A stretch of DNA of 64,000 bases from Chloroflexota bacterium. Lineage in GTDB: Bacteria > Chloroflexota > Anaerolineae > Promineifilales > Promineifilaceae. Each line of letters opens with the position of its first letter. Position 1 is the first letter of the stretch. A program made the translations under genes and the position numbers. Shown one piece after another: positions 2,370 to 14,209 of the stretch. The DNA lies in the NCBI GenBank assembly GCA_020628815.1, contig JAHDEN010000003.1:1-64000 (forward strand). Direction: 5' to 3'. The notes below the pieces were generated by a model, which worked only from the letters and a program-made list of their open reading frames with translations, did no database searches and had not been told where the DNA came from.

Positions 2370-3749
2370 ATGATTGACCCATCGCTGATTAGCCAATTAG
2401 CTGATCGGCTAATTAGCCAAAGTATGGACAATCCTTTTTACCACCGTGGCGCGATCCGTGAGATCGAAAAATTTTACGGTCGCGAATCTGAAACAACACA
2501 AATTTTGGGGCTCCTGCGTAACGGGCAGAGCGTTTCTTTAACCGGCCCGCGACGAATCGGCAAAAGCTCTTTGCTATTCAATCTGTGCGAGGATAGCGTT
2601 CGGGAAGCCTATCAACTCGATACCCCCAATGCGCTGTTTATTTTGATCGACTGCCAAATGATTGGTGGCGCTCCGGCCGAAGAAGTCTACGAAGTTTTGC
2701 TAGACGAAATCGGGTTGGCGATTGAAAAAGCGGGACTCAAAATTGAGACAAAAGCACCGCAAGGGACTTGGCGGGCGCTTGACCGGATGTTGGGGGCTGT
2801 AAGCCGTTTGGGCGTGCCCATTGTCATCCTGCTAGATGAATTTGAGCTGTTGGCGGCCAATGAAAATTTAACCCCGTTCTTCTTTACCCGACTGCGTGGT
2901 TTAACCACCCGCTATGGGATCGCCTTTGTTACCGCTAGCCAGCGGCCGTTGTTCTCGATTACCGCATCTGAAGAAATTTTGAGTTCACCCTTTTTCAATA
3001 TTTTTGTCAGCCTGTCGCTTGGACTTTTTAGTCGCGAAGATGCGGAAGGGCTTTTGGCGGATCGATTAGAAGAGACAGCCGTTTCGTTCTCGGCCGAACT
3101 GGTTGAGCACATTATCTATCTCGTTGGTCCAAATCCGTTCTTTTTGCATGTGGCGGGGTACCATGCTTGGCAGACCTTGGTTGAAAATCATGGGATGGAG
3201 ATCGATTACAACGCGTTGGATCGTGAGATTGAACGGGAAGCGGAATCACATCTCAGCTACGTGTGGCACAATCTAACCGAACCGGAGCAATATGCGCTGG
3301 TGGTTGGAGAAGGGGCAACCGATGTGTTGCGCAGCTTGCATCAACAAACATTGATCTGGGAACGGGGTCGGCCGGGGCAAACGGGCTTGCTGAAGCCGAC
3401 GTTTAGCAGCGATATTATGCGCCGCTATGTTCGTCGCCAGCAGGTCGAAAGCGTGATCCAGGCTGATCCATTTGTGATCGATTTGAACCGCCACCGGGCT
3501 ACGGCCAAAGGGACCGAATTAACCTTGACAATCAGTCAGTTTGACCTGCTATCTCGCTTAGCCCGCACACCGGGTCAGGTGGTAGACGCTGATGATTTAG
3601 AGCAGGCGGTTTGGGGCGAAGCGCTGGTTGATGACCCTGATCGCTTAAAAACATTGATTAAGCGGTTGCGCAAAGCGATTGAACCTTGGCAAGGCTGGAT
3701 TGTGAGCGAGCGTGGCGTGGGCTATGTTCTGCGTGAACCGACCGACTAA
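2370..3749 (+). CDS. P-loop ATPase fused to C-terminal OmpR-type winged-helix DNA-binding domain
   Basis: Soluble, 459 aa, no signal peptide. The N-terminal part has the FYGRE lead-in (residue 35 on), Walker A GPRRIGKSS at 59-67, an LIDCQ strand, and Walker B VILLDEFELL near 151-160, followed by helical regions with GPNPFFLH. This is an AAA+/STAND-like ATPase of the GPRRxGKTSLL group. Residues from about 374 to 455 match a Trans_Reg_C winged helix (TISQFDLLSRLARTPGQVV, then LIKRLRKAIEP and a terminal VSERGVGYVL hairpin), the DNA-binding part of OmpR/PhoB regulators. There is no receiver domain, so the ATPase probably replaces the phospho-switch. The next gene, 33 bp downstream, carries a recognisably paralogous ATPase behind a transmembrane sensor, which suggests partnership. 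DNA binding and ATP control are inferred from the domains. Confidence 0.85.
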   Translation: MIDPSLISQLADRLISQSMDNPFYHRGAIREIEKFYGRESETTQILGLLRNGQSVSLTGPRRIGKSSLLFNLCEDSVREAYQLDTPNALFILIDCQMIGGAPAEEVYEVLLDEIGLAIEKAGLKIETKAPQGTWRALDRMLGAVSRLGVPIVILLDEFELLAANENLTPFFFTRLRGLTTRYGIAFVTASQRPLFSITASEEILSSPFFNIFVSLSLGLFSREDAEGLLADRLEETAVSFSAELVEHIIYLVGPNPFFLHVAGYHAWQTLVENHGMEIDYNALDREIEREAESHLSYVWHNLTEPEQYALVVGEGATDVLRSLHQQTLIWERGRPGQTGLLKPTFSSDIMRRYVRRQQVESVIQADPFVIDLNRHRATAKGTELTLTISQFDLLSRLARTPGQVVDADDLEQAVWGEALVDDPDRLKTLIKRLRKAIEPWQGWIVSERGVGYVLREPTD

Positions 3750-3782
3750 CGCCCGTTTTCTGTTTACAAAAGCGTTTTTGAC

Positions 3783-6700
3783 ATGACCTTATTATCACGA
3801 TTGAGTTCCAGCAAAATTTCTTGGCTTGTTTTGTTGGGTGTTGGGCTACTTGTTGCCCCATTTTTTGCAGATTTGGGCGGCACTGTATCGGCTCAGTCAG
3901 ACGTGTATTGGGAGTTTGAAACACAGGGGAGATTGCTACAAGCTCATCCGGCCGACTTAAATGCAGATGGCATTCAAGAAGTTCTGCTAGTTGATGACTC
4001 GCAAACCTTAACCCTTTTAGGGGCTGATGGTCAGTTTATTTGGGGGGTCGAACTGCCCGGTCTACAAGTACTCGACCTAATCGATTTAAATACCACGCGA
4101 AACACCAGCGAAGCGGCAATTGTGATGGCAACCCCCGGCCGGTTACAGTGGGTAGACACGAACGGAGAGCTCTCGATTCAATACGATATTAGTTCGTCGC
4201 CACTGCAAGTTGAACGTTTGCCGGGCATCAACTCCGATTCCATTTTGCTGGTGACCCGATCTGGCTTTCTAGAGCGGATTAATGGGGTGACAGGTGAGCG
4301 GATTTGGCGCTATGAAAGCAGCGCTCCGGTTAGCGTGCGTGGCTCTGAAGCTGTTTTTGCCATTTTGCCTAGAATCAATCCAGAAACAGGCCAGACCCAA
4401 CAAGAAATTTTGATGTCGTTCCGCACGGCAGATGGGGTTGGCCGTTTAACTTTGTTGAGCAGCAGCGGTCAGGTGATTTGGGAAAAATCGACCTCTGTTT
4501 ATCAAACCGCTATGACCGGCCTGCCGTTTTTGATCGACGGCCGATCTTATATCGCAACCGGCTCGCTAGACGGCCGCTTGGCTCTGCTGGATCGAGAAAC
4601 CGGAAATGAAGTTTGGTTTAGAACCCCAAACCGGCAGATTACATCGATGGCACCTGCGGTTATCGACCAGCAACCGGCCCTTTTGCTAGGGACCGATGCG
4701 GGAACCGTGCTGGCTTATACGCTAGATGGGGTTCGACTGTGGGACCGTGTCATGGGTGCTTCACCCGAACAAGGGATTGTTGAAATTCAGGTTGCCGAGA
4801 TCGCAACTGATTTAAGCCGTGACTCGGTTGTGATGATCGAGCTGGAGCCGCTGCAAACCGGCGCGCGAGCCGGGGTTGCTGAGATCGTGGTGCCAGGACC
4901 AGACGGCCGGCCGATATCCCGCATCACCGGTGTTTCTGAACTGGCCGGTGCGGAGCTTACCGATCTAAACCAAGACAGTTTTACCGAGCTACTGCTCACA
5001 AACTTTTCAACCGTATCGCTGCAAGATTCCGGTTTTGGTGGAGAAGCTACCGGCTTTGTGACCAATTGGTCGTGGCGTTTAGATGCCGCCCCATCTGCTA
5101 TGCGGGGGATTGTGGGAGCAAACGGGCAAACGGTTGCTCTGATGGTCGCTGGTGAAGACGGCCGCTTGCATAATGTCTCTCCGGTGGTGGGTTTGCCCGT
5201 TTGGCAACAAAGCGTTGACGGCACAATTGAATTTTTAGAAGCGGTGCCTCAGACCGGGCAGAATGAAGGAGGGCCGCCCGATGTATTGATCGGCTGGAAC
5301 CGACTTCCGATATCTAATGGGGCAGGGGATCCGATCACTCAATCGGCCGGACTCGACTTAAAACGGTTAGACGGCACAAGCGTTTGGGAATTGCCGGTCC
5401 AAATTGGCGGGTTGATTACCGTCATGCAGGTCGATCAGGATGCCACAGGGCAAACGCTCGGCGTGCGAAACACCAATCGAGCTGCGCAAATTTATGTTGG
5501 CACCACAGAAGGGGACCTGTTGGCGTTTAGCCATCAGGGTGAGGCGTTGTGGCAGCGCAATTTGGGAACCAGTATTTTAGATGTGGCGATCATCAATCAA
5601 ATTGAAACGAATGATGTGATTGCCGCCTCAACCTCGGCCGGAATGCTTGTTTTGCTATCGCCGTCTACCGGCAGCACCATTCGGCAAACCAATCGGCATG
5701 GGCGTATCGATCACTTGATTTCGCTCCCTGCAGTGGATGAAGGAGCTGGCCTAAACGAAATCGACTCTGGCGTGGGGCTGCTGGCATTTACGGCCGCCAA
5801 TCAGCTGTTGGGATTAAATCTAACGCTCAATCAGGTTCCCGGGTGGGACGTCACTTTTTCAGACCGACCGGAATCGATTAACCGACTTGAAAATTCGATG
5901 CTGCTGAGCTGGAATGACGGCCGAATCGTCCGCTTGAGTTTGTCCGCACTTACCCCTCTACGCCGCATCTGGACCATTAACGGAGATGTAAATCCGACCG
6001 CTTCAATTTGGGGAGACGTCGATGGAAACGGCCGTTCTGAACTGGTGATTAGCGGTGAAGATGGCTCGATTCAGCTATATACGGCGGATGGGCGGCCATC
6101 AGAAACGATTGAATCATCGAGCGATGTGTTTGATCTAGATGTTCTGACTCAGGCTGAATTAACTTCACTTATTTCACTAACCGAGAATGGGGTTGTAACC
6201 AGCCTTTCGGCCCGCCCCAATCGGCCGCCGTTTTTAGCAAACGCGGTTGCTGGCCCGACGGGTGAACAGTACACGATCAGCGTGAGCTCAAACGATATTG
6301 ATGGGGATACGGTTCAGGTGAACTTGCAAATATGGGAGCCAAACGATGCCGCTTGGGTCTCGATGGGTGAACGTGAAGCCCCGGCATCTGCCAACCGTTT
6401 GGTCTGGACATTTGATCCGATCACGTTTAATCAACCTGTCCGCTATCGTTTCATTTTTAACGATGGGACCTTTATCGGCGGCGTTGAGCCGACCCCAGGA
6501 CCAGAAGTTGTAGGGCAGCAATTTCCGTTTAACTATTTGGTGGGTGGTATTTTAGCGATGTCGTTGATCACGCTGTTCATTGTGATCCGACAGCTGATTC
6601 GGACCATTCCGTTCCGCAGCCGCCTGCGCTATAACGAACTAATTGCGGACGACACCCTTACGCTGTCGAAGCTCAATGAAATCTATCGACAATCGGCCGG

Positions 6701-8717
6701 ATCACCCGACCTGTTGCTGTACATGGCCGGGCGTGCGCGGCAACAGGGCAAAACCGCCTTGGCCGATTTGTGCGATGGGCTGTATCTGCTGCCCGACCGG
6801 CCGGGAACGGCGATTGAGATTTTGGCTCAAGGATTGAAAGAAGATGACGCGAATGCTTGGGAAGATATTGAGCTGTGGCAAGAGCTGTATGAAGTGGCTG
6901 ACGAACTGTACGCATCTCCATCGATTGTTGAGCTGGGTCTTTTCGCTGATCGGCTAAATGACTTTTTGCCCCATCTGCCCAGCATCGATATTGAGGGTGA
7001 ATCTTTTGTGGCGCTATCTGGCCCGATGGAGCCGCTTGAGGCGGTAGGCCGGTTAGAGATGGCGCGTGACCGCATCGCATTTTTGCAAGAAGGGTCGGTT
7101 ATGTTACAGCAAGAGGCTGGGGTGATGATGTGGCGGCCGCACACCATTTCAAATCAGTTAGCGATTGCGATTAATGGGCGCTGGCAGGCATTGATCAATG
7201 CGACAATCGAAGAGCTGCGCGGCCGGCCGTGGCTGATTCCATCCCTGAAAACCCGCCGTTTGATTGCGGCCGGTGAGTCTGTGGTGGCGTTGGAGCTACA
7301 CAACAACGGGCAAGCTGGGGCGGAGCAGGTTGTTGTGCGGCTTGAGGAAGATCCCGCTTATTCGATCTTTAACGCGGAACAGTCGATTCCGTTTTTGGCC
7401 GTGGGGCGCACCACCATGCTGGAGTTCAAGATTACGCCGCATGAACCGGCCGATTTGCGCCTGGCATTTGAGATCGGTTTCCAAGATGCTGCCCATCGTC
7501 AGCACGGGTTCGACTTTGCAGACATGGCCACAATGATTTCGCATGACACGCCGTTTACCCCGATTCGCAATCCGTATGCTCCGGGGACTCCGTTGCGGCG
7601 TCAGAGCCCGCTGTTTTACGGCCGTCGCGAAATTTTAAACTTTATTATGGAGACGATCCAGAGCACCAACCAGTCGAACGTGATTGTGTTGGTGGGGCAA
7701 CGGCGCACGGGTAAAACCTCAACGCTGCTGCACTTGTCAGATGTGGCCCCGCCGGATATTTTGCCCGTGTATATTGACTGTCAGTCGTTGGGTGTTTCGG
7801 CCGGAATGACCGGCTTTTTGTACGACTTGGCATGGTTCATTTCTGACGCCCTCATCGAACGAGAGCTAGAATTAGATGTGCCTGACCTGTTGGTGTGGGA
7901 GAAAGACCCGGCCCATTATTTCCAACGTCGTTTTCTGCCACGTGTGTATGAGCTGCTGCCATACAATGCCACACTGCTTTTGGTGTTTGACGAGTTTGAA
8001 GCGTTTGAAGAGATGATCGCGAACGGGACTTTGCCCGAGACGTTCTTCAGCTTTTTGCGCCATTTGATGCAGCACGGCGGCCGGTTGAACTTTGTGTTTG
8101 CGGGTACCCATCGTCTTGAAGAGATGGGTACCGACTATTGGTCGGTGCTATTTAATATCGCGCTATATCGTCAAATCGATTATCTAGATAAATCTTCGGC
8201 GAATAAGCTGATTACCCAGCCGGTAGATGGCAAAGTGATCTATGACGATTTGGCGTTAGACAAGATTTGGCGCGTGACGGCCGGGCATCCCTACTTTTTA
8301 CAGCTGGTCTGTTACACCCTGATCAACTATGCCAACAAACACAAAACCGGCTATATCACCATTGCAGATGTCAACGAAATGTTGCGTGAGATGTTGCGTT
8401 TAGGTGAGGTGCATTTCGCCTATTTGTGGCAATTTTCTACTTTTGCAGAGCGGGCGGTCTTGATTGCGATGGCTCATTTGCATGAGGGGGATGAGCCGGT
8501 GACGGCGGCCGACCTGCAACAGAGCCTGCGGCCGTTTGATTTAGACCTGCTCCCGGCCGATATTACGGGGGCGCTGCGCCGCTTGGTGAGCCGTGAAATT
8601 TTGAGCGAATACCGTGATCGCAGGCTGTCGTTTTACGATATGCGGGTGGGTCTTGTGAAGCTGTGGGTCGAAGAGAACCGAAACTTAAGCGCTCTCTTCG
8701 AACGGAAACCTGTATAG
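3783..8717 (+). CDS. Membrane protein: external PQQ-like propeller, one TM, cytoplasmic P-loop ATPase
   Basis: 1644 aa. Residues about 13-38 form a signal peptide or anchor ending near VSAQS. Residues 40-820 hold repeats of the PQQ/FG-GAP beta-propeller kind (DLNADGIQEVLL, DLNQDSFTELLL, DVDGNGRSELVI, LLDRETGNEVW), then a cadherin/FN3-like module (about 825-905). One TM helix lies at about 915-938 and is followed by basic residues, so the rest should be cytoplasmic. That part has a helical stretch (940-1150), an Ig-like stretch (about 1155-1240), FYGRREI, Walker A VGQRRTGKTS near 1304-1313, YIDCQ, Walker B LLLVFDEFE near 1398-1406 and GHPYFLQL. The ATPase matches the upstream 459-aa protein motif by motif. 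Likely role: outside ligand or matrix sensing coupled to an intracellular ATPase. The ligand is unknown. Confidence 0.85.
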   Translation: MTLLSRLSSSKISWLVLLGVGLLVAPFFADLGGTVSAQSDVYWEFETQGRLLQAHPADLNADGIQEVLLVDDSQTLTLLGADGQFIWGVELPGLQVLDLIDLNTTRNTSEAAIVMATPGRLQWVDTNGELSIQYDISSSPLQVERLPGINSDSILLVTRSGFLERINGVTGERIWRYESSAPVSVRGSEAVFAILPRINPETGQTQQEILMSFRTADGVGRLTLLSSSGQVIWEKSTSVYQTAMTGLPFLIDGRSYIATGSLDGRLALLDRETGNEVWFRTPNRQITSMAPAVIDQQPALLLGTDAGTVLAYTLDGVRLWDRVMGASPEQGIVEIQVAEIATDLSRDSVVMIELEPLQTGARAGVAEIVVPGPDGRPISRITGVSELAGAELTDLNQDSFTELLLTNFSTVSLQDSGFGGEATGFVTNWSWRLDAAPSAMRGIVGANGQTVALMVAGEDGRLHNVSPVVGLPVWQQSVDGTIEFLEAVPQTGQNEGGPPDVLIGWNRLPISNGAGDPITQSAGLDLKRLDGTSVWELPVQIGGLITVMQVDQDATGQTLGVRNTNRAAQIYVGTTEGDLLAFSHQGEALWQRNLGTSILDVAIINQIETNDVIAASTSAGMLVLLSPSTGSTIRQTNRHGRIDHLISLPAVDEGAGLNEIDSGVGLLAFTAANQLLGLNLTLNQVPGWDVTFSDRPESINRLENSMLLSWNDGRIVRLSLSALTPLRRIWTINGDVNPTASIWGDVDGNGRSELVISGEDGSIQLYTADGRPSETIESSSDVFDLDVLTQAELTSLISLTENGVVTSLSARPNRPPFLANAVAGPTGEQYTISVSSNDIDGDTVQVNLQIWEPNDAAWVSMGEREAPASANRLVWTFDPITFNQPVRYRFIFNDGTFIGGVEPTPGPEVVGQQFPFNYLVGGILAMSLITLFIVIRQLIRTIPFRSRLRYNELIADDTLTLSKLNEIYRQSAGSPDLLLYMAGRARQQGKTALADLCDGLYLLPDRPGTAIEILAQGLKEDDANAWEDIELWQELYEVADELYASPSIVELGLFADRLNDFLPHLPSIDIEGESFVALSGPMEPLEAVGRLEMARDRIAFLQEGSVMLQQEAGVMMWRPHTISNQLAIAINGRWQALINATIEELRGRPWLIPSLKTRRLIAAGESVVALELHNNGQAGAEQVVVRLEEDPAYSIFNAEQSIPFLAVGRTTMLEFKITPHEPADLRLAFEIGFQDAAHRQHGFDFADMATMISHDTPFTPIRNPYAPGTPLRRQSPLFYGRREILNFIMETIQSTNQSNVIVLVGQRRTGKTSTLLHLSDVAPPDILPVYIDCQSLGVSAGMTGFLYDLAWFISDALIERELELDVPDLLVWEKDPAHYFQRRFLPRVYELLPYNATLLLVFDEFEAFEEMIANGTLPETFFSFLRHLMQHGGRLNFVFAGTHRLEEMGTDYWSVLFNIALYRQIDYLDKSSANKLITQPVDGKVIYDDLALDKIWRVTAGHPYFLQLVCYTLINYANKHKTGYITIADVNEMLREMLRLGEVHFAYLWQFSTFAERAVLIAMAHLHEGDEPVTAADLQQSLRPFDLDLLPADITGALRRLVSREILSEYRDRRLSFYDMRVGLVKLWVEENRNLSALFERKPV

Positions 8718-8763
8718 TGATTTTGCGTAAAGCCTTAAAATTTATGATTAGGAGACTGAATCG

Positions 8764-9135
8764 ATGGGCATTTTAAGTGGATTAATGGGCAATGCGTCCC
8801 AAGTGGATGTGAACAAAGTACAGGGTGAACTGCAAGGCGTTTTAATTCCGGAAGAAAAGGTTGAGGCGGGCTTTCAAGTACTGCGCGATCAATTTATCTT
8901 CACCAGTAAACGGCTGATTTTGATTGATAAGCAGGGGATTTCTGGCAAGAAAGTTGAGTACAAGTCGATTCCCTATAGCTCGATTAAGTATTTTTCAGTT
9001 GAGACGGCCGGAACTTTTGAGCGTGATGCAGACTTGAAAATCCACCTGACAGGCACTGTGATTTCCAAAAATTTGAAAAAGGGGATCGATGTGGTTGGAT
9101 TGCAGAGGATGCTGGCTTACTACATTTTGAAATAG
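8764..9135 (+). CDS. Bacterial PH-domain protein (YvbH/DUF1696-like)
   Basis: 123 aa, small and soluble. The start is well supported by AGGAGA at 8750-8755, eight bases before the ATG. The chain has the seven-strand bacterial pleckstrin-homology pattern: LIPEEKVEAGFQVLRD, then FIFTSKRLILIDKQG, KVEYKSIPYSSIKYFSVETAG and a closing helix GLQRMLAYYIL. These PH proteins are common, mostly uncharacterised, and are thought to bind other proteins more often than lipids. It lies 46 bp after the propeller-ATPase gene on the same strand and could be its third partner or an independent gene, since a good ribosome site precedes it. The function is unknown. Confidence 0.8.
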   Translation: MGILSGLMGNASQVDVNKVQGELQGVLIPEEKVEAGFQVLRDQFIFTSKRLILIDKQGISGKKVEYKSIPYSSIKYFSVETAGTFERDADLKIHLTGTVISKNLKKGIDVVGLQRMLAYYILK

Positions 9136-9447: not shown

Positions 9448-11154
9448 CTACTTAATTGTAAAACAGCCTCGGCCGGATTGGGCTAAAACAGTCCGGCCGT
9501 TGGGAGCCATATGCACAACCTGCCACTGAAATTCTTTTGTAACCCCATCCAGAAAATACCCTTGTGGGGTGATAAACCACTGGTAAACGTTGCCGTTTGG
9601 TTCGGCGAACACTTTGCCGATCGAACGCAAGTTGCCACCCCGTGGGCCTACCCGAATTTCAAGATACTCATTCCAATATAGATTGCCGTTCCAGCGCCAA
9701 TTGAGTTCAATTTGGCTGTTTTGAGCGTAGTTTTGCCATTCGGCCGCACAGTTTAGATTGAGCAAAACCGGCCGTGGAAAGACCCGTTGCACAGGGGCTA
9801 TTGTGGCGGTTGCCGCATCTGACACCGTAATCACCACGGTTGAGGTGATCGGCTCAATGGTTACCGTAAGCTGAGGCTCTTCGGTTGGGGGAGGGGTTTG
9901 CTCATCAGAATCTGAAGATTCTGTGGTTGCTGTGGGTTCATCTGTTTTGACAATTTGCGGTTTCGGTTTGACGGCCGATTGCTCTGTTGGGATGGGGGGG
10001 CTAGTTGGGAGAGTGGTGGGTGAGCTAGCGGCCGTAGCCGCTTTGGTCGGGGCTTGAGCCGTTGCATCTGCCCCGTTTGATTGGTCTGAATCTGCTGCCC
10101 CGATTTGAGCCAATTGGCTATCCTGCGGGGTGGGGGTTGAAAGCTTGGCTACCACAGAAGGCTGTGCCAGCTGATCAGAGCCGTTTGGCTGATTGCGTAG
10201 ATAGACAAAGGCGAAGAGGGCCACAACAACGACCGCTGCAACGGCCAGGCCGTTATAAAATTGCACAGGATTTTTGATCAGCTGATTGCGAATGGTTGTT
10301 GCGTAATCAAGCCGTGATCCCGGCCGTGCCTGTAACGTTGCGACTGAAAAACTCCCAGCAACGCCTGATTCAACCAGCTGCGGCAAAATTTCGACGATGA
10401 GGTCTTTCCCATCATACAGAGATAAAAGATCAAAAAGATTGATCGCTTCTCCCTGACGCTCAACAACCGTCTGAAAATTTTGGCTGCCCACAATCACAGA
10501 ATCCCCTTCTTTGATCGGCAAGCCGCTTATTCCTCTTGATTGAGCCCGTGCAAACTCTGCATCTGTCAGGTTTTGCCCAATATGGAAGCCTCGATCAACT
10601 TTGATTGAGTCATGTTTGCCAACGGCCGAATCCCAGCTTTCTGCATAGTGGGTTTCTGGATCTAAATGTGGTGCGGTTGAAGGGTTTGTTAAGGTTAACT
10701 GGGTCAACCGTTCGCCACGCACCAGATAAATCGGATTGGCACCTATGTTGGCGATAAACAGGGTTTCTTCGTTTTCAATGGCGGCTACGGCGATGTGGGC
10801 ATACACATCATCCATTTTCCTGGTTGTCCAATAAATTTCGTGGTTGGCGCTTCTGATTGCGTTTTCCAACAAAGTCGGAATGTCATAATCGTTGCCACGA
10901 TCAAACTGGACTAACATCGCGTCGATAGCCATTTGAGCAACACGTGCGGCCCAGCCATCCCCACCAAATCCTGTGGCGACGATGGCATAATCGATTAGGC
11001 TACCGTTGTTGATGGTAACGGAGCCTGATCGTGTGCGTTGAGTATAAGGTTTTGCGGATGCTTTGTGAAAGCCGTTTGCGTTGATGATGAGAGCCATTTG
11101 AAATGATGGGAGTAATTGCTTAGCAATCAAACTTGGATCGATCGTTCTGTCCAA
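9448..11154 (-). CDS. PP2C-like (probably catalytically dead) membrane protein with extracellular tail
   Basis: 568 aa. Residues about 20-280 follow the PPM/PP2C phosphatase layout: YAIVATGFGGDGW (56-68) sits where active enzymes have VADGMGG, and FIANIGANPIYLVRGERLT where they have NVGDSRAYL. The metal-binding Asp of the first motif is Thr (ATG for ADG), the GD of the second is GA, and no DNLT motif is visible, so catalysis is doubtful. A single TM helix follows at about 298-318, then a Thr/Pro/Ser-rich linker of roughly 140 residues and a C-terminal beta-rich domain of about 100 residues with two Cys. The PP2C part would be cytoplasmic and the tail outside. An alternative start is Met20. 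It is convergent with the ATPase/PH-domain genes across the structured repeat. Confidence 0.75.
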   Translation of the reverse strand: MDRTIDPSLIAKQLLPSFQMALIINANGFHKASAKPYTQRTRSGSVTINNGSLIDYAIVATGFGGDGWAARVAQMAIDAMLVQFDRGNDYDIPTLLENAIRSANHEIYWTTRKMDDVYAHIAVAAIENEETLFIANIGANPIYLVRGERLTQLTLTNPSTAPHLDPETHYAESWDSAVGKHDSIKVDRGFHIGQNLTDAEFARAQSRGISGLPIKEGDSVIVGSQNFQTVVERQGEAINLFDLLSLYDGKDLIVEILPQLVESGVAGSFSVATLQARPGSRLDYATTIRNQLIKNPVQFYNGLAVAAVVVVALFAFVYLRNQPNGSDQLAQPSVVAKLSTPTPQDSQLAQIGAADSDQSNGADATAQAPTKAATAASSPTTLPTSPPIPTEQSAVKPKPQIVKTDEPTATTESSDSDEQTPPPTEEPQLTVTIEPITSTVVITVSDAATATIAPVQRVFPRPVLLNLNCAAEWQNYAQNSQIELNWRWNGNLYWNEYLEIRVGPRGGNLRSIGKVFAEPNGNVYQWFITPQGYFLDGVTKEFQWQVVHMAPNGRTVLAQSGRGCFTIK

Positions 11155-11398: not shown

Positions 11399-14209
11399 TT
11401 ATCCACCGATTAGCTTTTTTCGGCCGGAAGAAGTTATTCCTAAAGCCACACCGCCGTGTGATAGCTGTTTTTCCTCGATAAGGCGTTGTTGAGTCAACTG
11501 ACGAATCCCTAGCTGAATCGAACGTTCCCCTCGATCGCTTAGCGAACTCCACGCCTCAGATTGGTAGGCCCTATCATTGTCTCTCAACTCACCGGTTAAG
11601 AGCAACACTAAATTACGTTTTCCCCATCCATTTTCGGATAATGCTAACAAGATCGCCCGTTCGATGGTTGGATCGGCCGTTGCTTCTTCCCATTCTGGCA
11701 AAATATCTGGCTCACAATTGTCGCATCGGTCACATTTTTCGCGCACAGCACCACCCAAATAGTTGGCCAAATAGCCGTGCCTGCAATAGCGACTTTTGCC
11801 ATATTCGCCTATCTCTGCCACACGTTGCTTTTGGATCGAATCATGTTCATCAAGCAGTCGTACAATCCGTTCAGATGAGTCTTCGGGGGGCTGAAGCACC
11901 GTTACATTTGGGGTGCGATTCTGCCCATCGTAAAACAGATGGGCGGCCGTGGCCCATTCTGACAGGGTGGGCAAAACTTCGTTGGGGAAAACCCCAAGTA
12001 CGGCCGCCACATCAACCATGTTGCGTGTTACCGTAATCCCTTGCTCAAGCCCCATGTCGGCCGCAAACGCCTGTAGCTCAATCGGTCCTGGGCTCAGCCA
12101 TTTTAAACTCAGCGAGAGCGGTACATCATAATCCCGCACCAGCAGCTCCGCATTTTCGAGCATGTTGACCGCCACCCGCAAATTGGTGCTGTCTGTATTT
12201 AAACGCTGGGCGATCACATCAAAGTTCACCGGCCCAGAACGGCCGACCGGCACCTGTTTTCTAATCTGCCCGTACACATCGCGCAAAAACTCAACTTTGA
12301 GCGCGTCGCTGTTAACCAAGCGGGTTAAAAACCCTTTATCGGCCGTGCTGTGTACCAAAACACAATAGCTTTCTTTCCCATCTCGTCCCGCACGCCCCGC
12401 TTCTTGATAATAAGATTCAATTGAATTGGGCAAACCGTAGTGCAAAATAAAGCGGATGTCCGCCTTGTCGATCCCCATCCCAAAGGCAACAGTGGCCACA
12501 ATAATGTCAGTTTCACCGCTCATAAAGCGATTTTGTACCTGGGCCCGATTGCTGATGCGGGCGTGATAATGCTCCGCTTTTAGCCCCTGATTACGTAGGA
12601 TGAGGGCGATCTCTTCACAGTTTTTGCGTGACCGGGCGTAAATAATGCCAGGGCCAGGGAGCCGCTGGGCCAAACCGATCACATCGCTTAATTTGTTGTC
12701 TGCGTTGCTGGCTGTAATCGCTGCCAGTTTCAAATTGTCTCTAAACGTGTCTAGGGCGATAAATTGGAACTTCCGCTGAGTCTCGCTGGGGGTGAGGGTT
12801 TTTAAAGGCTCGAACAGCCGCCGTTCAATATCTTGCCGCACCAAAAGCGGTGCTGTGGCGGTTAAGGCAAGGATGGGTGGCGCACCCAAGTCACGATGTG
12901 CTTGGTTAAGCCACAAATAGTCCGGCCGGAAATCGTGCCCCCATGTTGACAAACAGTGGGCCTCATCGATTACCAGACGGCCGATGCCAGCCCGCTTAAT
13001 CGCCTGCACAAAGCGCCACTGTCGCAACCGCTCGGGTGCTACAAACACCATTTTGTATTTGCCCAGCGCCACCGCCCGAATGGCAGCTTTTAGTTCAGAT
13101 TCGCTCAGGCTGCTGTTGATGGCGAGCGCTTGCCCACGTATTTCTTCTGGCAGCCCGTCCACTTGATCCTTCATCAGGGCGATCAGGGGAGAAATGATGA
13201 GGGTGACCCCTTCGGTCAAAAGGGCTGGCAGTTGGTAGGTCAGCGATTTTCCGGCCCCGGTTGGCAAGATGGCAAGCACATCTTCCCCCCGTAAGGCACA
13301 GGCCATAATTTGTAGTTGAGCGTCGCGCAACGCATCAAACCCAAAGTGGGTTTTGGCGGCCGTTTCAATTTGCTCTTTCTCTTCGGCCGAAACTTGAACC
13401 AAACTTAGATCGGGCAACGGGGCCGGTTTTTGTTTTTTCGGCAGGCGAGCGGGCAAGATGCGTTTAGACCGTTTGGCCCGCTGTGCCGCATCCCCTTTGC
13501 CCCCTTCAGCGATTTCTCCCAGAATGGTTGAAAGCTCGGTTGAAAAGCGGCCGTTCAACATTTCGTCGATTAAGATCAGCCGGTTTGTATCTCCTAGCTC
13601 TTCAAACAGGTCTCGCAAATCACGCAGCAGATTGGTGTAGATGGCGCTTTCACCTTCGTTAACTGTAAATGCGTTAACCGCAAAGGCTTGGGCCTGCACT
13701 TTGTCATCTTTGGCTAAATAGATTTTTGCTAATCTGAGGGTGGCGGTGCGGCTGCGTGGCGCCATTTCTAGCTGTTTGCGGGTCGCCCGCTCCGCTTCAT
13801 CTAGCTTGTTTTCGGCCAGCTCAATATCGGCCAGCAGTGCCCAAGCTTGGATCACCGCTTCGTTTTGTTGGATCAGGGTGTCGGCCGTTTTGCGTGCCAG
13901 AGGCAAGTTGTTGTCTTCTAGATAGTAACGTGCCAGCTGAGACATGGCGGTGGGGGAAAACTTTGTTTCAAGCCGCTCAACCATCACTTTGATGGCAGAT
14001 GGGGTGCGCCCCATGCCCGCATAGGCGCGAGCTTTCCGGTCGGCCATTGAAACCAAATCCGGCCGGTTGACCGCATCCACCACGTCGATGACCTCTTGGT
14101 AGCTCTCCCAGTGGGTTAGAAAAGTCAGAATACGGTTGCGGACTTTACCCGCTAAAGCGGCGCAGTCGGCTGGAGTGAGTTCGAGTTGTGATAAAAGTGT
14201 TTCCTTCAT
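11399..14209 (-). CDS. recQ: ATP-dependent DNA helicase RecQ with N-terminal TPR-type extension
   Basis: 936 aa, much longer than standard RecQ (about 600). Residues 1-250 are helical repeats in the TPR style (LARYYLEDNNLPLARKTADTL, LADIELAENKLDEAERATRK). The helicase core starts near 285 with FGFDALRDAQ. LPTGAGKS (Walker A) is near 313, VIDEAHCLSTWGHDFRPDY (motif II and aromatic loop) near 415, and GMGIDKADIR and YYQEAGRAGRDG follow. The RQC zinc cluster CRHGYLAN...CDRCDNC lies near 806-830. A short winged-helix-like tail follows and no HRDC domain is apparent. It unwinds DNA 3'-5' in recombination and fork repair. The TPR front suggests a protein partner. The 244-bp gap to the downstream PP2C-like gene argues against tight coupling. 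Confidence 0.93.
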   Translation of the reverse strand: MKETLLSQLELTPADCAALAGKVRNRILTFLTHWESYQEVIDVVDAVNRPDLVSMADRKARAYAGMGRTPSAIKVMVERLETKFSPTAMSQLARYYLEDNNLPLARKTADTLIQQNEAVIQAWALLADIELAENKLDEAERATRKQLEMAPRSRTATLRLAKIYLAKDDKVQAQAFAVNAFTVNEGESAIYTNLLRDLRDLFEELGDTNRLILIDEMLNGRFSTELSTILGEIAEGGKGDAAQRAKRSKRILPARLPKKQKPAPLPDLSLVQVSAEEKEQIETAAKTHFGFDALRDAQLQIMACALRGEDVLAILPTGAGKSLTYQLPALLTEGVTLIISPLIALMKDQVDGLPEEIRGQALAINSSLSESELKAAIRAVALGKYKMVFVAPERLRQWRFVQAIKRAGIGRLVIDEAHCLSTWGHDFRPDYLWLNQAHRDLGAPPILALTATAPLLVRQDIERRLFEPLKTLTPSETQRKFQFIALDTFRDNLKLAAITASNADNKLSDVIGLAQRLPGPGIIYARSRKNCEEIALILRNQGLKAEHYHARISNRAQVQNRFMSGETDIIVATVAFGMGIDKADIRFILHYGLPNSIESYYQEAGRAGRDGKESYCVLVHSTADKGFLTRLVNSDALKVEFLRDVYGQIRKQVPVGRSGPVNFDVIAQRLNTDSTNLRVAVNMLENAELLVRDYDVPLSLSLKWLSPGPIELQAFAADMGLEQGITVTRNMVDVAAVLGVFPNEVLPTLSEWATAAHLFYDGQNRTPNVTVLQPPEDSSERIVRLLDEHDSIQKQRVAEIGEYGKSRYCRHGYLANYLGGAVREKCDRCDNCEPDILPEWEEATADPTIERAILLALSENGWGKRNLVLLLTGELRDNDRAYQSEAWSSLSDRGERSIQLGIRQLTQQRLIEEKQLSHGGVALGITSSGRKKLIGG

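Follow-up and report, generated by a model that had tools for sequence, protein, structure and literature searches.

Adjacent STAND ATPase genes in Chloroflexota as a candidate transmembrane relay between a propeller sensor and an OmpR-type DNA-binding protein

Signals from outside the bacterial cell are known to reach DNA through histidine kinases, anti-sigma factors, Ser/Thr kinases and one-component membrane regulators. Here we describe two adjacent genes, G1 and G2, in a stretch of 64,000 nucleotides from a Chloroflexota bacterium (JAHDEN010000003.1, contig 224 in a draft assembly of 6.5 Mb; the whole stretch is called the window below). G1 encodes a STAND ATPase with an OmpR-type winged helix-turn-helix (wHTH), G2 a transmembrane (TM) beta-propeller protein with an ATPase of its own, and on balance we believe that they are the two halves of a transmembrane relay leading from sensor to transcription via a mixed STAND ATPase assembly. 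STAND ATPases switch from an ADP-bound closed monomer to an ATP-bound assembly (PMC4381067, PMC6468293). The nearest published parallel to such a pair of STAND genes comes from Kaur et al. (2021), who reported a mobile two-gene operon with a STAND (nSTAND2) module in each protein, one of them inactive, fused mostly to GT4 or HEPN domains (PMC8195603, Fig. 6C), and predicted a hetero-multimer acting against invaders (PMC8195603).

The present locus resembles that operon in its adjacent genes, in the STAND core of each protein and in the variable domain on one partner. However, one ATPase of the Kaur operon has eroded NTP-binding motifs, whereas those of G1 and G2 are both intact throughout the bacterial family of the window's genome; the effector there is most commonly a GT4 or HEPN domain on the inactive partner, whereas the output here is a Trans_reg_C wHTH; and nSTAND2 occurs there in both genes, whereas here G1 is nSTAND2 and G2 lies outside that profile. 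Kaur et al. place an Arg finger in both partners; its putative counterpart in the present pair is an Arg, invariant in the G1 family as in the G2 family, that lies between Walker B and sensor 1. Added relative to that precedent are an extracellular sensor with signal peptide, propeller and TM helix, and DNA-binding or kinase outputs. The preliminary description of the locus, made from the sequence alone, knew of no described system of this make-up. That is correct only in part. The operon of Kaur et al. (2021) has an inactive partner and GT4/HEPN effectors in place of membrane sensors and DNA-binding outputs, but the predicted two-gene nSTAND2 operon in that paper (PMC8195603) lowers the novelty of the pairing itself, and some of the pairs reported below may already be listed in its supplementary table. 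Our literature search, which was scant on subscription journals, returned no paper that pairs a propeller-STAND protein of the membrane with a STAND-helix-turn-helix (HTH) protein.

Single-protein relatives are also known. MalT and other LuxR-type STAND regulators likewise combine a STAND ATPase with a C-terminal HTH that controls transcription (PMC4381067, PMC10427625), but MalT has its own in-chain sensor domain, whereas sensing here would fall to a second, membrane-bound protein that itself carries a STAND ATPase; MalT/LAL proteins carry a LuxR-type HTH and an in-chain TPR sensor, whereas G1 has an OmpR-type wHTH and no TPR (four relatives, L119-L122, do have a LuxR HTH). AfsR and other SARP-NOD proteins also join an OmpR-like wHTH to a STAND (NOD) ATPase (PMC10936776), but in AfsR the wHTH is N-terminal and accompanied by BTAD and TPR, whereas in G1 it is C-terminal and both of these are missing. 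As in two-component and ToxR/CadC-type membrane regulators, an external sensor is linked to an OmpR-type wHTH; unlike in the ToxR/CadC type, the wHTH does not reside in the membrane protein. Pfam profiles HisKA, HATPase_c and Response_reg gave no match in G1, G2 or the PH-domain gene that follows them, in agreement with the preliminary description, and the pair probably signals across the membrane without a histidine kinase.

The features of the two genes are as follows.

2427..3749, + strand: G1, output protein, nSTAND2 ATPase and C-terminal OmpR-type wHTH (Pfam, family alignment, AlphaFold2 (AF2)); the reading frame is also open from an ATG at 2370
2469..3293, + strand: G1 STAND ATPase domain, with Walker A GPRRIGKS, Walker B LLDEFE and invariant Arg176 between Walker B and sensor 1
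3510..3731, + strand: G1 Trans_reg_C (OmpR/PhoB-type) DNA-binding domain (PF00486, 60.5 bits; structural match to 2d1v)
3783..8717, + strand: G2, sensor protein, with signal peptide, extracellular propellers, TM helix, cytoplasmic linker and STAND ATPase (Pfam, hydropathy, AF2)
3825..3881, + strand: hydrophobic stretch near the N terminus with ...VSAQS after it, probably a signal peptide (hydropathy and sequence)
3909..6152, + strand: extracytoplasmic PQQ/BamB-like beta-propeller region, fitting two tandem propellers (Pfam PQQ_2, AF2, Foldseek)
6192..6485, + strand: all-beta juxtamembrane domain, Ig/FN3-like by eye (AF2 strands, aa 804-901)
6528..6602, + strand: single TM helix, aa 916-940 (hydropathy, AF2; the scan finds a TM segment in most family members too)
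6606..7577, + strand: cytoplasmic linker, a helical repeat region (aa 942-1146) followed by a beta domain (AF2)
7614..8303, + strand: G2 STAND ATPase domain (AAA_22), with Walker A GQRRTGKT, Walker B VFDEFE and an invariant Arg in FLRHL

Both open reading frames, their order, the gaps of 33 bp (G1 to G2) and 46 bp (G2 to the PH gene) and every motif quoted in the preliminary description were confirmed, as were the two architectures it described. For G1, Pfam matched nSTAND2 (E 1.9e-17, 63.9 bits) and Trans_reg_C (E 2.9e-15, aa 381-454) in 2370-3746. In the AF2 model (pLDDT 87.7) the closest solved folds to the ATPase are the archaeal ATPases 2qen and 2fna together with the Orc/Cdc6 group. For the wHTH, the match is to the DNA-binding domain of B. 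subtilis YycF (2d1v, TMt 0.82). For G2, the frame at 3783-8714 matched the PQQ_2/BamB propeller (E 2.8e-15) and AAA_22 (E 1e-8, aa 1297-1448), and the hydropathy scan gave a signal-like segment at aa 15-33 and one TM segment at aa 917-935. The AF2 model of G2 (aa 1-1200; pLDDT 79.5, pTM 0.52) displays an all-beta ectodomain, a long helix at aa 916-940 and helical repeats to aa 1146. Its best Foldseek matches are tandem WD-propeller proteins at low TM-scores, and for that reason we say only that the modelled ectodomain probably holds two propellers. G2 was assigned to the STAND class only by AAA_22 above cut-off and by homology to G1; its relatives match nSTAND1 above cut-off, and the nSTAND2 profile gave no match to G2 at E 0.01. 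No recognisable output domain was found within G2. Outside the family, the G2 linker gave a near-full-length match in a few loci only, with partial matches elsewhere.

Co-occurrence of the two architectures, the check proposed in the preliminary description, was borne out by adjacent pairs throughout the family and across the class, by mirrored trees, and by a sensor-ATPase phylogeny that predicts the output. Both genes were present in 22 of 24 family genomes searched, and in the other two (G006 and G014) one gene ends at a contig edge. Wherever a contig spans the locus, with the exception of G001, G1 and G2 are adjacent on one strand with G1 first, frequently overlapping, and this subtype of the pair is near-universal and single-copy within the family. 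Walker A (GPRRIGK[ST] in G1, GQRRTGKT in G2) and Walker B (DEFE) show no erosion in any family member whose sequence extends over them. Mean identity to the window proteins within the family is 57-58% for the ATPases and 61% for the wHTH, and falls to 26% for the propellers, the fastest-evolving part; a constant ATPase engine is thus joined to a receptor that varies. In the alignments of both the G1 and the G2 family, the Arg that lies between Walker B and sensor 1 is invariant, which is compatible with, though no proof of, contacts in trans.

In a class-wide survey of 298 genomes with 70 G1-type matches, a G2-type ATPase was located within 6.5 kb of at least 57 of the 70; at least 6 of the remaining 13 begin no more than 1 kb from the beginning of their contig. 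By our own arithmetic, with 1-6 G2-type matches per genome of several Mb, chance adjacency would be approximately 1%. The domains attached to the two ATPases vary. On the G1 partner the output is an OmpR wHTH also in L111, L112, L114, L117, L128 and L129, a LuxR/GerE HTH in L119-L122, a Ser/Thr kinase in L079, L080, L082, L084, L085 and L115 (HRD and DFG intact where checked), EAD7 in L083, L086 and L105 by Pfam and in others by homology, and CHAT in L130. Inputs on the G2 partner include FG-GAP propellers with a TM segment (L111, L112), a TM segment followed by a PD40 propeller (L119-L122), polytopic TM regions with or without GAF (L079, L080, L082, L114, L117), TCAD9 (L086), and TPR, WD40 and HEAT repeats. 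A membrane propeller is thus combined with an HTH output in two layouts that use unrelated HTH types (L111/L112 and L119-L122). At one locus (L095, 4881-8789) the OmpR wHTH is located on the G2-type partner (ATPase-TPR-wHTH) and not on the G1-type one.

The preliminary description called the two ATPases paralogous on the strength of shared motifs. The motifs are present, but they are general to STAND-type ATPases; identity between G1 and G2 is about 26%, and a tree of 92 ATPase domains splits the two types with 100/100 support. On these two grounds, low identity and deeply separated clades, the G1 and G2 ATPases are two ancient lineages and not recent duplicates. Subtypes A (wHTH/propeller), B (kinase/polytopic TM) and C (EAD7/TCAD9) form clades on both sides of the tree, with the L079 locus adjoining subtype A on both, and no partner exchange between subtypes was seen even though several genomes carry two or three of them. 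Distances on the two sides correlate (Mantel r 0.88 for all pairs, 0.91 inside subtype A and 0.80 for the others with one A added), with 0 of 10,000 permutations as high; reduced to one representative per subtype, the data give a weak correlation (r 0.37; 246 of 10,000 permutations) because the distances are then saturated. Moreover, the output of the partner can be predicted from a second tree, made of G2 ATPases (10 changes compared with 26.2 in shuffles), one clade of which contains a swap between wHTH (L114) and kinase (L079, L115). Hidden Markov models (HMMs) trained on the initial set told the partners apart by 90 bits or more at all of the Chloroflexi loci added later. The pairing of G1 and G2 is well supported, and on phylogenetic grounds the two genes have been inherited together over a long time.

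Co-assembly, the direction of the signal, ATP-driven oligomerisation, the ligand and the target genes we infer. According to the relay model, the G2 propellers would lie outside the cell and bind a ligand or sense the state of the envelope, and the signal would pass through the single TM helix and the helical/beta linker to the cytoplasmic STAND ATPase of G2. Once activated, this ATPase would nucleate or license an ATP-driven mixed assembly with G1 through putative Arg-finger contacts in trans. OmpR-type wHTHs act as dimers on direct repeats, and the G1 assembly could cluster its wHTH domains on direct-repeat promoter DNA and thereby change transcription. This agrees in part with the interpretation in the preliminary description, and the pair is more general than was seen there. 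With a little less than even confidence, we propose a class-wide modular form of signalling, parallel to two-component systems, in which sensor STAND and output STAND ATPases keep a conserved ATPase-ATPase junction around which receptors and outputs (two DNA-binding kinds, Ser/Thr kinase, EAD7, CHAT) may be swapped. If true, a widespread STAND ATPase pair would constitute an additional route for outside signals to DNA, and STAND proteins, familiar from immunity and from MalT, would be linked to ordinary transmembrane sensing. The model then predicts that the ATPase-ATPase interface is constant and that sensors and outputs are plug-ins.

Several observations weigh against the relay. G001 has both genes, but unlinked, with G2 not in the downstream flank of G1; L113 has a G1-wHTH gene without G2 within 10 kb, the nearest being at 10.8 kb; and no G2-G1 fusion protein was seen in the searches. 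Mirrored trees partly reflect shared genomes, and the split into two clades is partly by construction, given that G1 and G2 sequences were first sorted by best match, although the mirrored order within the clades is not. EAD7 and CHAT in related pairs are conflict-system domains, so that transcription may not be what the pairs generally serve.

The most credible of the other explanations, though an unlikely one, is an inhibitory contact in which membrane-bound G2 sequesters G1 and frees it on stimulus. Inhibitory proteins, MalY among them, sequester the STAND transcription factor MalT (PMC10427625), and tethering of G1 to the membrane would fit the single TM helix of G2. However, the catalytic sites of both proteins are conserved, which suits an active partner. 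MalY, moreover, is not a STAND ATPase. Sequestration predicts that deletion of G2 leads to constitutive G1 activity, a phenotype opposite to that expected from the relay. The domains borne by relatives (EAD7, CHAT, TCAD9, FGE/FGS-type) raise instead the slightly less probable alternative of a counter-invader system, in which an invader or a competing cell would be detected by the propellers and the two ATPases would then set off a defensive reaction, in this case at the level of transcription. The prediction of Kaur et al. (2021) for two-gene nSTAND2 operons (PMC8195603), the fast evolution of the propellers (26% identity against 57-58% for the ATPases) and an Acinetobacter plasmid, whose type I restriction locus holds a G2-type ATPase-N6-methylase/specificity fusion and a probable G1-type gene, all favor such a role. 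But defence loci are patchy and mobile, whereas nearly all genomes of the family have this subtype, in a single copy; the output of G1 is DNA-binding and not toxic; and no PADLOC family matches G2, while G1 has only weak partial matches (E above 1e-4).

Least probable, in our view, is that the proteins act separately and are merely co-transcribed, G1 as a MalT/AfsR-like one-component regulator responding to a cytoplasmic ligand and G2 as a membrane receptor with its own output. G1-like ATPase-wHTH proteins without a G2 partner (L097-L100, L107-L109, and L113 with its distant one) and the unlinked genes of G001 speak for this reading. However, the seven partnerless proteins belong to a separate clade, no output domain can be recognised within G2 itself, and mirrored subtypes, the lack of partner exchange, adjacency in at least 57 of 70 cases and partner-dependent outputs all speak against it.

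The separate ATPase-wHTH clade (L097, L098, L099, L100, L107, L108, L109) has a P-loop that is mostly GxSNxGKS and no G2 partner nearby; some of its genes lie near MutL-type, RecJ, FHA or MacB/FtsX-type genes. A search of plasmids yielded no match to the G1 ATPase and matched the G2 ATPase only in three Acinetobacter plasmids. In one of these, from Acinetobacter ursingii (L131, 5286-10809), the type I restriction locus carries the fusion of a G2-type ATPase with an N6-methylase/specificity protein and, after it, the probable G1-type gene, which scores 32 bits better on the G1 than on the G2 HMM.

The start of G1 at 2370, as given in the preliminary description, is probably too early. The alignment places the start of most family orthologues at the codon equivalent to 2427 (M-x-NPFYHRG), and 2384-2423, just ahead of this likelier start codon, consists of five tandem octamers (GCTGATTA GCCAATTA GCTGATCG GCTAATTA GCCAAAGT). 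G004 likewise has five octamer units. We considered the palindromic octamers as an operator and rejected this: in a genome-wide pattern search similar runs adjoin unrelated genes, including a probable valS, and a dispersed repeat is therefore likelier. The closest named relatives of the window's genome are metagenome-assembled genomes labelled "Chloroflexi bacterium", with 94% and 86% identity to G1. By eye, TACAAT-like -10 elements were seen approximately 5-12 bases before the G1 start codon in L068, L071, L073, L076 and L077, and their proximity suggests leaderless transcripts and a promoter of G1's own in those five loci.

Among the neighbouring genes, 8764-9132 encodes a PH-domain protein (bPH_1, E 1.4e-43, Pfam). 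It does follow G2 in the window, as the preliminary description had it, but among the genomes examined it does so elsewhere only in G004, and we rejected it as a third component of the system. A UvrD-like helicase at 27-2297, possibly cut by the window start, was likewise rejected as a core part; it is the upstream neighbour in about half of the family and is not beside the pair in the others. On the opposite strand, 9448-11154 encodes a 568-aa PP2C-like protein with a weak match to Stp1-type phosphatase, which is not beside the pair in relatives. The gene at 11399-14209 encodes a 936-aa RecQ-type helicase with an N-terminal TPR region.

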